From Arthrobacter sp. FW306-07-I (GTDB lineage: Bacteria > Actinomycetota > Actinomycetes > Actinomycetales > Micrococcaceae), in assembly GCF_021800405.1 (NCBI RefSeq), contig NZ_CP084550.1:2542001-2606000 (forward strand): a stretch of 64,000 nucleotides of DNA, written 5' to 3'. Within the stretch, counting starts at the first letter, position 1. The number at the start of each line of letters is the position of its first letter. Shown here piece by piece: positions 22,022 through 25,854 of this stretch. The translations under genes and the position numbers were made by a program. A model generated the notes under the pieces. That model was not told the origin of the DNA. It made no database searches and worked only from the letters and a program-made list of their open reading frames with translations.

Positions 22022-22942
22022 ATGACTGAAGCCGAAGCCGGACTGCTGGCGCCGCCAAGCGGAGACCCAACCTCATCGCTGATCGAACTGCTGGACCTTG
22101 GTGAGCTTGAGGGCGCACGGACGGATGAGGATATTTTCCTGGGCCCTTCCCAGCAGCAGCCCCACCATAGGGTTTTCGGCGGGCAGGTGCTTGCGCAGTC
22201 ACTGGTCGCGGCCACCAGGACGGTGGATCCGGAGCGGTTCGTCCACTCCATGCATGGCTACTTCCTGAGGCCGGGCGACGCCAACAAGCCCATCACCTTC
22301 GGGGTGCAGCGGTTGCGCGATGGCCGGTCCTTTTCCGCCAGGCGAGTCCACGCCTATCAGGACGGGGTGCCCATCCTGTCAATGATTGCCTCCTTCCAGG
22401 GTGACGATGCAGGCATCGACCACTCCTCCGTCATGCCGGCTGGAATCCCGGACCCCGAGTCGCTGCCCAGCACAGCTGACCTGCTGGGGAAGTTCGACCA
22501 CCCTGTGGCCCGGCATTGGGCGTACGAGCGCCCCTTCGACATCCGGCACGTGGACCCGCCGCTGTATGTCTCCGCAACCGGCCCGCGCGAGGCCCGCAAC
22601 GCCGTCTGGATGAAGACCTTCGGCCCGATGCCGGACGACTCCAACCTGCACCGTGCCGCCCTCGCCTATGCCAGCGACTACACGCTCCTCGAGTCGATTC
22701 TTCGACGCCACGGCCTGAACTGGACCACCCCGGGCATGAACGTCGCAAGCCTGGACCACGCCATGTGGTGGCACCGCCCGGCACGGGTTGATGAATGGCT
22801 TCTCTACGTCCAGGAGTCCCCCAGCGCCCATGGCGCCCGGGGCCTGGCCACGGGCAAGATCTTCAACCGTGAGGGCCACCACGTTGCCTCGGTGGCGCAG
22901 GAGGGCATGGTCCGGATTCCCAGCCTCCCGGAAGACGCCTAG
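22022..22942 (+). CDS. tesB: Acyl-CoA thioesterase II
   Basis: Double hot-dog thioesterase of 306 residues that hydrolyses acyl-CoA. Hallmarks are VFGGQVLAQSLVAA (near residue 55), HSMHGYFLRPG, and the C-terminal SLDHAMWWHRP containing the catalytic Asp, with a Gln near VAQEG completing the site. The stop TAG (22940-22942) lies inside the 6-bp target duplication of the downstream insertion sequence, so the coding region is intact. The insertion separates tesB from the hairpin at 24049-24099, which probably was its terminator. Confidence 0.94.
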   Translation: MTEAEAGLLAPPSGDPTSSLIELLDLGELEGARTDEDIFLGPSQQQPHHRVFGGQVLAQSLVAATRTVDPERFVHSMHGYFLRPGDANKPITFGVQRLRDGRSFSARRVHAYQDGVPILSMIASFQGDDAGIDHSSVMPAGIPDPESLPSTADLLGKFDHPVARHWAYERPFDIRHVDPPLYVSATGPREARNAVWMKTFGPMPDDSNLHRAALAYASDYTLLESILRRHGLNWTTPGMNVASLDHAMWWHRPARVDEWLLYVQESPSAHGARGLATGKIFNREGHHVASVAQEGMVRIPSLPEDA

Positions 22943-22943
22943 A
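22938..22943. repeat. Left target-site duplication of the IS481 element
   Basis: CCTAGA directly abuts the left inverted repeat and recurs exactly at 24016-24021. It fits the NCTAGN target with 6-bp duplication described for IS481-type elements. The TAG within it is the tesB stop codon. Confidence 0.93.
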
Positions 22944-22965
22944 TGTATTGACCACGGAGGTTAGG
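22944..22965 (+). repeat. IS481 left terminal inverted repeat
   Basis: Begins TGTATTGACC and continues with GAGGTT at positions 14-19. It pairs with the right end at 23994-24015. Confidence 0.9.
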
Positions 22966-22993
22966 AACATGCGGCGTGGTTAGGTGACAAAAA

Positions 22994-23050
22994 GAAGACC
23001 TCCAAGTGGAGTGGGGCTTGTCTAAGAGTCCGATCCACAAGGAGGTCTTC
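22994..23050 (+). promoter_or_regulatory. Hairpin sequestering the transposase ribosome binding site
   Basis: GAAGACCTCC (22994-23003) is perfectly complementary to GGAGGTCTTC (23041-23050), which contains the transposase Shine-Dalgarno just before the ATG at 23052. After an AA/AA internal loop, GTGGA (23006-23010) pairs with TCCAC (23034-23038). A transcript entering from outside would bury the ribosome site, whereas one starting after about 23003 would not. Confidence 0.75.
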
Positions 23051-23051
23051 A

Positions 23052-24020
23052 ATGTCCCATGCTAACGCGCTTCTGACGCCGAAGGGACGGCTCCGGCTGG
23101 CCCGGTGCATCGTCGATGACGGGTGGCCGCTGCGCCGTGCTGCTGAGCGGTTCCAGGTGTCGGTGACGACCGCAGCGCGGTGGGCGGCCCGTTACCGGGA
23201 GCACGGGGAGCACGGGACGGGTGATCGTTCCAGCCGGCCCATCAACTCCCCGCGTCGGACCTCCACGCGGCGGGAGCGGCGGATCGTCGCGATCAGAGTC
23301 AACCGGCGCTGGGGCCCGGCACGGATCGGCTATCTGCTGGGCATTCACCCCTCCACGGTGCACCGGGTGCTGTCCCGGTTTGGGCTGGCGAGGCTGGCGT
23401 GGATGGACCGGGCCACGGGCCGGGTGATTCGCCGGTACGAGCACCACAGCCCCGGGGACCTGGTCCACGTCGACATCAAGAAACTTGGACGGATCCCTGA
23501 CGGCGGCGGACACCGCAGTGTCGGCAGGGCCGCCGGAAACCGGAACAAGACCGGTACCGCGGCGAACCGGAGACCGGGTCACGCCTTCTTGCACAACGCC
23601 GTCGATGATCACTCCAGGCTCGCCTACACGGAGATCCTGACCGATGAGAAAAAGGACACTGCGGCCGGATTCTGGGAACGCGCCAATGCCTACTTCGAGT
23701 CCCACGGGATCACTGTCAAACGGGTCCTGACCGATAACGGATCCTGCTACCGCTCCTACGCATTCAAAGACGCTCTGGGCCCGGACATCAAGCACAAACG
23801 CACCCGCCCCTACAGGCCTCAGACAAACGGCAAAGTCGAGCGCTACAACCGCACCATGCTCGACGAATGGGCCTACGCCCGTCCCTACGCCTCCGAGGCC
23901 GAGCGTGTTGCCGCTTTCGCCGACTGGCTCCATCATTACAATCATCATCGAGGCCACACCTCACTCAACGGTCAGCCACCGGCCAGCCGCGTCACCAACC
24001 TCTCAGGTCAATACACCTAG
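23052..24020 (+). CDS. IS481-family transposase
   Basis: A 322-residue transposase. The N-terminal helix-turn-helix (residues about 12-55, with PLRRAAERFQVSVTTAARW) is followed by a second HTH-like segment and an integrase core. The catalytic residues are Asp141 (HVDIKKLG), Asp228 (LTDNGS) and Glu263 (KVERYN), giving the DD35E pattern. The C-terminus carries HHYNHHRGHTSL. A strong AAGGAGG ribosome site lies six bases before the ATG, inside a hairpin stem. The last codon and the stop are built from the right target duplication. Confidence 0.96.
   Translation: MSHANALLTPKGRLRLARCIVDDGWPLRRAAERFQVSVTTAARWAARYREHGEHGTGDRSSRPINSPRRTSTRRERRIVAIRVNRRWGPARIGYLLGIHPSTVHRVLSRFGLARLAWMDRATGRVIRRYEHHSPGDLVHVDIKKLGRIPDGGGHRSVGRAAGNRNKTGTAANRRPGHAFLHNAVDDHSRLAYTEILTDEKKDTAAGFWERANAYFESHGITVKRVLTDNGSCYRSYAFKDALGPDIKHKRTRPYRPQTNGKVERYNRTMLDEWAYARPYASEAERVAAFADWLHHYNHHRGHTSLNGQPPASRVTNLSGQYT
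23994..24015 (-). repeat. IS481 right terminal inverted repeat
   Basis: The reverse complement begins TGTATTGACC and matches the left end at 17 of 22 positions. The final coding residues of the transposase lie within this repeat. Confidence 0.9.
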
Positions 24021-24021
24021 A
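24016..24021. repeat. Right target-site duplication of the IS481 element
   Basis: CCTAGA, identical to 22938-22943. Its TAG (24018-24020) is the in-frame stop codon of the transposase. Confidence 0.93.
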
Positions 24022-24048
24022 CCCTGTCGGGACGACGGGCCGCGCATA

Positions 24049-24099
24049 AAGAAGGCCGGCGTCCGATGTGAAAAGCTCACCTCGGACGCCGGCCTTCTT
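24049..24099. terminator. Bidirectional terminator between tesB/IS and ettA
   Basis: An 18-bp perfect stem (24049-24066 with 24082-24099) surrounds a 15-base loop. It is followed by TTTAT on the minus strand and lies 12 bases after the ettA stop. Before the IS inserted it lay about 30 bases after tesB and so probably served both genes. Confidence 0.88.
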
Positions 24100-24110
24100 C
24101 CTTTGCCCTG

Positions 24111-25793
24111 CTAGTCGCGGGTGAGGCGCCGGTGGGTGACGCGGTGCGGCTTGGCGGCGTCGGGACCCAGCCGCTGGACCTTGTTCTCCTCGTAGGATTC
24201 GAAGTTGCCCTCGAACCAGTACCACTTGGAGGGGTTTTCGTCGTCGCCTTCATAGGCCAGGATGTGGGTGGCCACCCGGTCCAGGAACCAACGGTCGTGC
24301 GAGACCACCACGGCGCAGCCGGGGAACTCGAGCAGCGCGTTTTCCAGGCTGCTGAGGGTTTCGACGTCGAGGTCGTTGGTGGGCTCGTCAAGCAGCAGCA
24401 GGTTGCCGCCCTGCTTCAGGGTGAGCGCGAGGTTCAGCCGGTTCCGCTCACCGCCGGAGAGGACGCCTGCCTTCTTCTGCTGGTCCGGGCCCTTGAAGCC
24501 GAATGCGGCGACGTAGGCGCGGGACGGCATTTCAACGTTGCCCACCTGGATGAAGTCGAGTCCGTCGGACACGACCTCCCACAGCGTCTTGTTGGGGTCG
24601 ATGCCGCCGCGGCTCTGGTCCGCGTAGGAGATCTTGACCGAGTCACCGATCTTCAGGTCGCCGCCGTCGAGCGGTTCCAGGCCGACGATGGTCTTGAACA
24701 GGGTGGTCTTGCCCACGCCGTTGGGGCCGATGACGCCCACGATGCCATTGCGGGGCAGGGTGAAGGACAGCCCGTCAATCAGGACCCGGTCCTCAAAGCC
24801 CTTCTGGAGGTTCTTGGCCTCCAGCACCAGGCCACCCAGTCGGGGTCCCGGTGGGATCTGGATCTCTTCGAAATCAAGCTTGCGGGTGCGGTCTGCCTCT
24901 GCGGCCATTTCCTCGTAACGGGCCAGGCGGGCCTTCGACTTGGTCTGGCGGCCCTTGGCGTTGGAGCGCACCCAATCGAGTTCCTCGGCGAGGCGCTTGG
25001 CCTGCTTGGCGTCCTTCTTACCCTGGATTTCCAGGCGGGCGCGCTTCTTCTCCAGGTAGGTGGAGTAGTTGCCCTCGTAGGGGTACAGGTGGCCGCGGTC
25101 CACTTCGGCAATCCATTCAGCCACGTGGTCGAGGAAGTAGCGGTCGTGGGTCACGGCAAGGACGGCGCCGGGGTAACTGGAGAGGTGCTGCTCGAGCCAG
25201 AGTACGCTCTCGGCGTCCAGGTGGTTGGTGGGCTCATCAAGGAGCAGCAGGTCCGGCTTCTGCAGGAGCAGCTTGCACAGCGCCACGCGGCGGCGTTCAC
25301 CACCGGAAAGGTTGGTGACATCGGCATCGGCCGGCGGGCAGCGCAGCGCGTCCATAGCCTGTTCCAGCTGGGAGTCGAGATCCCAGGCGTCCGCGGCGTC
25401 GATGGCTTCCTGCAGCTTGCCCATCTCTTCAAGGAGGGTGTCGTAGTCAGCGTCGGGGCTGGCCATTTCCTCCGAGATCTCGTTGAAGCGCTGGATCTTT
25501 CCGTAGATCTCGCCAACGCCTTCCTGGACGTTGCCCAGGACGGTCTTTTCCTCGTTAAGGGGCGGTTCCTGGAGCAGGATACCCACGCTGTAGCCGGGGC
25601 TGAGCCTGGCCTCACCGTTGGAGGGCGTGTCCAGCCCGGCCATGATCTTGAGGATGGTGGACTTACCGGCACCGTTGGGGCCCACAACACCAATCTTGGC
25701 GCCCGGGAAGAAGGACATGCTTACGTCATCAAGGATGAGTTTCTCGCCAACGGCCTTGCGGGCCTTGGTCATTGTGTAGATAAATTCCGCCAT
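24111..25793 (-). CDS. ettA: Energy-dependent translational throttle protein EttA (ABC-F ATPase)
   Basis: Twin-ATPase ABC-F protein of 560 residues that binds the ribosomal E site and couples translation to the ATP/ADP ratio. Walker A motifs are GPNGAGKST and GPNGVGKTT, and the ABC signatures are LSGGERRRVAL and LSGGERNRLNL. Each half has an LLLDEPTNxLD Walker B. An arm and PtIM linker lie between the halves. There are no membrane segments. ATG start at 25793, giving the usual EttA length (E. coli 555). The SSB paralogue nearby matches the mycobacterial arrangement. Confidence 0.95.
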   Translation of the reverse strand: MAEFIYTMTKARKAVGEKLILDDVSMSFFPGAKIGVVGPNGAGKSTILKIMAGLDTPSNGEARLSPGYSVGILLQEPPLNEEKTVLGNVQEGVGEIYGKIQRFNEISEEMASPDADYDTLLEEMGKLQEAIDAADAWDLDSQLEQAMDALRCPPADADVTNLSGGERRRVALCKLLLQKPDLLLLDEPTNHLDAESVLWLEQHLSSYPGAVLAVTHDRYFLDHVAEWIAEVDRGHLYPYEGNYSTYLEKKRARLEIQGKKDAKQAKRLAEELDWVRSNAKGRQTKSKARLARYEEMAAEADRTRKLDFEEIQIPPGPRLGGLVLEAKNLQKGFEDRVLIDGLSFTLPRNGIVGVIGPNGVGKTTLFKTIVGLEPLDGGDLKIGDSVKISYADQSRGGIDPNKTLWEVVSDGLDFIQVGNVEMPSRAYVAAFGFKGPDQQKKAGVLSGGERNRLNLALTLKQGGNLLLLDEPTNDLDVETLSSLENALLEFPGCAVVVSHDRWFLDRVATHILAYEGDDENPSKWYWFEGNFESYEENKVQRLGPDAAKPHRVTHRRLTRD

Positions 25794-25854
25794 GGTCTCA
25801 AATCTAGTGGGTTGGCGGGCAGATCTCACATTTGCGGCCGGCAGGCTGACGCGA

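Follow-up and report, generated by a model that had tools for sequence, protein, structure and literature searches.

The window analyzed here, a stretch of 64,000 nucleotides from Arthrobacter sp. FW306-07-I (contig NZ_CP084550.1, positions 2,542,001 to 2,606,000; coordinates below are those of the window), contains an insertion sequence of the IS481 family, 1072 bp in length (22944..24015, plus strand), that is inserted at the very end of tesB, the gene for acyl-CoA thioesterase II. Reading of the junctions supports the conclusion that the host target supplies the stop codon of the transposase gene of this element and that, at the consensus target NCTAGN, it must do so. A target-supplied stop is the commonest arrangement among the relatives examined. 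The core mechanism is known and not new; what is worth keeping is its prevalence, the switching between target-supplied and own stops, the preference for stop codons of host genes, and the borrowing of stops at both ends.

The element is delimited by its ends, by the duplicated target and by five more intact copies in the same genome (loci L002-L006). The target hexamer CCTAGA is present in two identical copies (22938..22943 and 24016..24021), and the inverted ends are 10 bp long: at the left junction, GACG CCTAGA is followed by TGTATTGACC (22944..22953, plus strand), and at the right junction, GGTCAATACA (24006..24015, plus strand) is followed by CCTAGA CCCTG. The transposase gene (23052..24020, plus strand; 322 codons and a stop, with a DDE/rve core) has no in-frame stop inside the element. 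The right inverted repeat is entirely coding and specifies Gly, Gln, Tyr and the first base of the final codon, so that the open reading frame (ORF) terminates as CAA TAC A/CC TAG, where the slash marks the element boundary: the final codon is composed of the A of the element and the CC of the target, and it is followed by a TAG (24018..24020) that belongs to the right target copy and is wholly host DNA. The initial annotation, made from the sequence alone, placed the end of the element at 24015 and let the frame cross this boundary to the target TAG, which is correct to the base. It also assigned the left TAG to tesB (22022..22942, plus strand), and the stop of this gene is indeed found at 22940-22942, within the left target copy. 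The identification of tesB comes from a match to TIGR00189 (E-value 2.6e-85; 286.2 bits, slightly below the model cut-off of 292.85).

The transposase matches the IS481 family model NF033577 with a score of 361.9 bits (cut-off 224), and a Pfam search identifies the rve (E-value 5.8e-12) and LZ_Tnp_IS481 (E-value 4e-10) domains. The layout is that of the IS481 family, i.e., about 1 kb, ends of the form TGT...ACA, and a transposase frame over most of the 1072 bp; the element carries no cargo, and a 302-codon antisense ORF that is also listed within it is regarded as spurious. Candidate catalytic residues, suggested by motif reading only, are the aspartates of HVDIKK and LTDNGS and the glutamate of GKVERY. 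The window element is almost certainly an ordinary member of the CTAG-targeting branch of the IS481 family whose transposase gene runs off the right end.

A protein search of the same genome with this transposase yields 15 matches. Six intact copies of the window element, one of them with a single mismatch, occupy six different places, and all six, checked as the initial annotation had proposed, have the stop-less frame and a perfect 6-bp NCTAGN duplication with the in-frame TAG at positions 3-5 (targets CCTAGA, CCTAGG three times, CCTAGC, and TCTAGG), which rules out chance. The copy at TCTAGG ends in Ile rather than Thr. A second element of this genome (L008-L012), about 55% identical, is target-stopped in 5 of 5 copies. 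Two further observations concern the same genome. A seventh copy of the window element seems to lie in two pieces (L007 and L015; contig 1 of this genome, 1132817-1139427) with about 2.6 kb of other sequence between them, and CCTAGG precedes the left piece and follows the right one; and a third element (L013 and L014) lies at an NCTAGN site yet has its own TGA at -8, inside the right repeat (stop positions are given relative to the element end, the target-supplied stop being at +2).

The empty site was sought among 25 tesB-like loci in 24 genomes, the own genome included. The closest relative, L346 (98% identical in tesB), reads AACGCGTAAACCCTGTCGG, and the window flanks joined with a single hexamer read GACGCCTAGACCCTGTCGG; the two are collinear, and in L346 the tesB stop runs straight into ACCCTGTCGG, like the window after the right target copy. 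Thus, the predicted empty-site arrangement is borne out as to collinearity but not as to the target itself, given that L346 has TAA at the end of tesB, not CTAG. At the other tesB-like loci of the 25 read, no alignment downstream of tesB is apparent by eye.

The survey of relatives covers 304 loci from the own genome, the genus (198 genomes), the family (295), the phylum (296), GTDB contigs and plasmids; the loci come from ranked matches, with the best 80 of 556 taken from the GTDB contig scan. Both ends are identifiable in 251 loci, which represent 248 distinct insertions: 198 are target-stopped at +2, 42 have a stop of their own, and 8 are neither. Multi-copy genomes contributed several copies per element, so these insertions are not independent, and the 132 lineages obtained at 90% amino-acid identity are the better unit; 114 of these are target-stopped, 17 have their own stop (10 at -7, 4 at -15, 3 at -8), and one has none. 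For the other 53 loci, a right end of the form ACA-NC-TAG or ACA-NC-TAA is present in 31 and absent in 22. A perfect 6-bp duplication is present in 209 distinct insertions (166 target-stopped, 38 own-stopped, 5 other). The target core of the 166 is CTAG in 159, TTAG in 5 and CTAA in 2, and the stop codon is TAG in 164 and TAA in 2, the latter from CTAA. The claim that a consensus target always provides a stop can be checked on the 163 distinct insertions that have a perfect CTAG duplication and no own stop at the usual positions: 159 end on the target TAG, and the four exceptions (L036, L041, L050, L260) have a frame that is already shifted or broken upstream of the junction. The codon across the junction has the form ANC, or ANT where the target is TTAG, and is sense in every case; the last transposase residue (n=166) is Thr in 70, Ser in 58, Asn in 24 and Ile in 14 cases.

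More distant members show the same arrangement. Outside the Actinomycetota, a sample of 10 Rhizobiales plasmid copies with annotated transposases (from 60 listed hits; a group annotated as ISRel2 is included) has the annotated stop at +2 in 10 of 10 and a perfect duplication in 7 of 10; the stop of one of this set, L378, is TAA. L385, L407 and L408, whose clade shares about 26% identity with the transposase of the window, also stop at +2, and L409 (Tritonibacter) reads ACA-CC-TAG at the right end, its left end not being found. Two members have no CTAG at their best end pair: L296, with clear ends, a target-site duplication CGCGCC and no visible CTAG, has its own stop 59 bases inside the right end, and L386, whose best end pair lacks CTAG and whose ends are uncertain, has its own stop about 50-65 bases inside.

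The coincidence of the left target copy with the stop of tesB is an instance of a general pattern, with about half of the classified insertions located on the stop of a host gene. Of 201 eligible sites, 8 were dropped (6 with short flanks, 2 duplicates); among the remaining 193 insertions, 91 coincide with the stop of a gene-like ORF, 18 lie within an ORF, and 84 do neither, where a host-gene stop was recognized from the length and third-position GC of the ORF rather than from annotation. The respective numbers for 166 background CTAG sites, drawn from 20 of the genomes in the set, are 43, 29 and 94, which gives an odds ratio of 2.55 (p 3e-5) for the excess at host stops, or 2.37 (p 3e-4) for stops against neither, with the insertions coming from more genomes than the background. 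Compared with the background of the own genome (39/130), the odds ratio is 2.08 (p 0.003), and the genus insertions alone are on host stops in 40 of 87 cases (p 0.002). Orientation at host stops is even (48 with the gene, 43 against it). Part of the excess may reflect survival, insertions inside genes being lost. The target itself is rare: 400 kb of the window genome (L271-L290) contain 147 CTAG sites, where base composition predicts 1271 and a Markov estimate 375, i.e., about 8.6-fold and 2.5-fold fewer than predicted, and 400 kb from 20 genomes contain 189 versus 1263 expected from base composition.

These observations are best explained by a simple scheme, the first two steps of which can be read off the junctions. 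Insertion at NCTAGN duplicates the six bases, so that each new copy adjoins N-C-T-A-G-N; the last base of the element, A, then forms a sense codon with NC, and TAG ends translation. When a host gene ends on CTAG, the duplication restores its stop on either side because CTAG is self-complementary, and the insertion thus spares the coding sequence of that gene; this is seen in the sequence for tesB, and its frequency is a statistical result. Fidelity to the target would make an own stop dispensable, and this would be why most of the CTAG-targeting lineages examined have stayed stop-less; an element would acquire its own stop by the change of a single base in the right repeat, e.g., from CAA/CAG to TAA/TAG at -7.

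The initial annotation named two findings that would speak against a target-supplied stop: a stop codon inside other copies, and insertions at non-CTAG targets without a stop at the junction. Both are absent for the window element and both occur among its relatives, and together with the following observations they weigh against a needed role of the borrowed stop. The 42 own stops among the 248 insertions are at -7 in 26, at -8 in 9 and at -15 in 7. Close relatives, 77-84% identical (e.g., L022, L026, L047), have their own TAA at -7 and are still inserted in CTAG, and L410, located in CCTAGT, has its own TGA at -21. Stop-less copies without a junction stop persist as well. In L175, a true duplication of GCTATG leaves the frame to run for 206 more codons, junction codon included, and to continue in phase through the final 203 residues of the interrupted gene, which from our reading of its sequence appears to encode a sodium/glutamate-symporter-like permease; the sister copies in the same genome (L173, L174, L176, L177) are in CTAG with the normal stop. 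Likewise, L155 and its longer fetch L398 have GCTACG on both sides and a frame that runs for 143 codons. Elements with their own stop also go off target (CTAA and GTAG, 2 of 38 perfect duplications) and are found on host stops as often as target-stopped ones (18/36 versus 72/153), so the preference for host stops is independent of the borrowed stop.

Perfect non-CTAG duplications of stop-less elements comprise five TTAG, two CTAA and one CTAT in the main survey and L398 (CTAC), L446 (TTAG) and L456 (TTAG) in the later set of cargo-carrying elements described below. A stop is kept in 9 of these 11, and a TTAG or CTAA target keeps one in either orientation because of the CTAG-type palindrome. 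Given that own-stop elements show the same kind of off-targets, we rejected the stop-bearing off-targets as proof of selection; the bias toward such sites looks like a property of the enzyme.

How the stop-less state came to be so common can be explained in two ways. It is probable, if only by a modest measure, that the state is a neutral by-product, with strict CTAG targeting guaranteeing a stop and the own stop drifting freely. The tree of the 132 lineages, a quick one built without a mixture model from the 263 of 304 loci that had a suitable frame and carrying a warning of long branches meeting, has at least seven changes between target-supplied and own stops, and this repeated switching speaks for neutrality. 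Furthermore, both repeats vary at the -7 codon, this codon being identical on the right and the left in 58 of 97 lineages, and 56 of 97 target-type lineages have CAA or CAG at this position, one transition away from the TAA or TAG of the -7 own stops; the matching change is found in the left repeat of L022 and L047 and is absent from that of L042 and L190. However, free switching would predict own stops in more than 17 of the 131 classified lineages, and an in-frame stop within the final seven codons of the right end is absent from all 97 lineages of the target type, compared with two of their left ends that have one; this argument is weak because repeat and coding constraints are entangled. 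The second explanation, an adaptive proof-reading in which a copy at a wrong site makes a poorly working, tailed transposase and only correctly inserted copies stay active, we consider rather improbable. It would account for the spread of the target-stopped state over the tree (114 of 132 lineages), for the rarity of off-target insertions of stop-less elements that lose the stop (among perfect duplications with an intact frame, L175 alone out of 167, and L398 from the later set), for the long tails of these cases (206 and 143 codons), and for the retention of CAG in the right end of L008 and L156 where the left end has the equivalent of TAG. At least seven switches with CTAG targeting unchanged, and the off-targets and host-stop preference that own-stop elements share, argue against it. 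A misread frame, in which the transposase ends earlier at a frameshift or internal stop and the target TAG is irrelevant, can be dismissed at the sequence level, with no evidence found in its favor: the frame is open from the ATG to the target in 6 of 6 intact copies, the match to the IS481 model extends to residue 314 of 322, and the same phase is kept in members down to about 40% identity (L295, L322, L324).

Several loci of the survey do not fit the pattern at the right junction (tail lengths include the junction codon). The right flank is CCAGAC in L018 (tail of 10 codons), GCTCGC, on the right side only, in L023 (35 codons), CCTTAG in L053 (18 codons), TCAGGG in L189/L403 (99 codons) and GTTGTT in L255 (17 codons), and L311 has one extra base ahead of CTAG (83 codons). 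The right end of L158/L400 abuts the left-end-like TGTGGACTGACC (TGTGGACTGACCAGTGACGTTGG), with a tail of 5 codons, and is perhaps a tandem or circle-like junction. The frame of L036, L041, L050, L260 and L312 is broken or shifted or stops well inside, L250 has a decayed end, and the right target of L455, L457 and L459 is damaged or different. Because a corresponding target copy on the left is lacking in most of these misfits, off-target insertion accounts for them no better than recombination or decay. The loci L007, L025, L034, L035, L055, L192, L214, L240, L266, L268, L269, L306 and L317 are truncated or run off a contig end; the 22 loci without a readable right junction also include L155, L294 and L296, the last two of which were read separately.

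A branch with transposases about 51-55% identical to that of the window carries cargo genes between the left end and the transposase. These elements (L387-L406 and L441-L458) are IS481-type, 1.9-3.8 kb in length and relatives from the same order. Forty loci were fetched, 20 for a missing left end or an odd feature and 20 as close hits to one cargo-element transposase; 36 of them, including near-copies (e.g., L387-L391), have more than 500 bp in this space and a usable left end, and one of the 36, L405, has extra DNA that looks like a nested transposase. A Pfam search with ten cargo proteins identifies MarR, Glyoxalase, WYL with a helix-turn-helix (HTH) domain (two proteins), NmrA-like, AraC-type HTH with DJ-1/PfpI, AraC-type HTH, ArsP permease and a FAD-binding protein, with one protein unmatched; three further proteins match HxlR, WYL with HTH, and MFS transporter.

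A leftward regulator gene in 7 of the 36 passes through the inverted repeat, where the protein ends as NVSGQY or NVPGQY, and stops at +2 in the left target. The seven are L396 and L451 (AraC-type with DJ-1), L399 (MarR), L404, L445 and L446 (WYL) and L443 (HxlR); L396 resembles L451 and L445 resembles L446, so that five kinds are represented. The duplication is perfect in five (L399, L404, L445, L446, L451), and all seven transposases are target-stopped as well; the target of L446 is TTAG, which provides TAG at one end and TAA at the opposite end. In at least eight more of the 36, a minus-strand ORF instead stops inside the left end (L397, L398, L400, L401, L441, L444, L448, L456), and the left ORF of L403 (113 codons) was left out of the count as antisense to a MerR-like ORF. 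Some cargo members are thus very likely stop-less at both ends, with the transposase running rightward, a divergent regulator (MarR, WYL, GlxA/AraC or HxlR) running leftward, and each stopped by its own copy of CTAG. The same four bases at such elements can also close an oncoming host gene.

The transposase leader appears to form a hairpin. Across 109 aligned leaders, ten bases ahead of the start codon (in the window GGAGGTCTTC, 23041..23050, plus strand, likely with the ribosome-binding site inside) pair with an upstream arm (GAAGACCTCC, 22994..23003, plus strand), the right arm ending one base ahead of the start codon. Pairing is observed in 90.6% of cells, with 126 both-side changes, compared with maxima of 83.5% and 64 in 200 partner shuffles, which ignore relatedness, the structure being derived from the same alignment. 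A simpler test, in which the longest leader stem beat all 30 of its own shuffles, succeeds in 34 of 113 lineages only, so the case for the hairpin rests on its constant place and the compensatory changes. By eye, no clear promoter is seen in the hairpin loop, and an Rfam search of the region gives no match in the element, only three microRNA models far below threshold outside it (24032-24114). Hiding the ribosome-binding site on incoming transcripts is a known safeguard of other insertion sequences, and, judging from the conserved pairing, the hairpin would block transposase synthesis on transcripts reading in, e.g., from tesB. Downstream of the element lies the convergent ettA gene (24111-25829, minus strand; PRK11819.1, 928.1 bits).

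IS870 of Agrobacterium vitis belongs to the IS5 family and so has a transposase of another family than the window element, yet the CTAG-derived stop is shared. The title of a 1993 paper on IS870 already states that the CTAG target makes the stop codon of the large ORF of the element. The initial annotation was unsure how far a target-supplied stop is documented; for the IS481 family, it has been in print since 2008, as seen in the part of a report on ISLxc2/ISLxx4 of Leifsonia xyli considered here (PMC2516522). That report places an in-frame stop 111 nucleotides after the start in ISLxc2, a stop that the window element lacks (PMC2516522). For ISRe46 of Rhodococcus equi, the relevant passages of a 2019 report identify the TAG of the right repeat with the UAG stop of the transposase, and for TnRErm46 they identify the left TAG with the stop of some host genes (e.g., parB), the function of which is reportedly uninterrupted (PMC6794481). 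These elements share with the window element the IS481 family, NCTAGN repeats and the use of the target TAG as transposase stop; TnRErm46 differs in carrying cargo, which IS481 members may do according to the same passages (PMC6794481), and the stop of its distal left gene is a TGA within the left inverted repeat and not part of the target, which comes near to borrowing at both ends. The passages on ISRe46 describe one element, without a survey (PMC6794481). For IS481 of Bordetella pertussis, the element after which the family is named, the portion of the literature consulted gives the consensus NCTAGN and a duplicated CCTAAC site (PMC3053399), the same hexamer as at L180 and L197. Borrowing of the target at both ends and family-wide switching are not mentioned in the parts of the open-licence literature searched, an absence that proves little.

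The annotation of the window is settled by these results: the end of the transposase gene lies in host DNA, and tesB retains an intact coding sequence. Transposases of this kind would be missed or shortened by gene prediction that stops at the element boundaries. More generally, the findings suggest that, across a large part of an insertion sequence family, genes routinely obtain their ends from host DNA, a trait that switches, and that insertions are overrepresented at host stop codons, each of which is restored by the insertion. The family thus presents a testable case in which the choice of target both finishes the genes of the element itself and limits the harm to the host.

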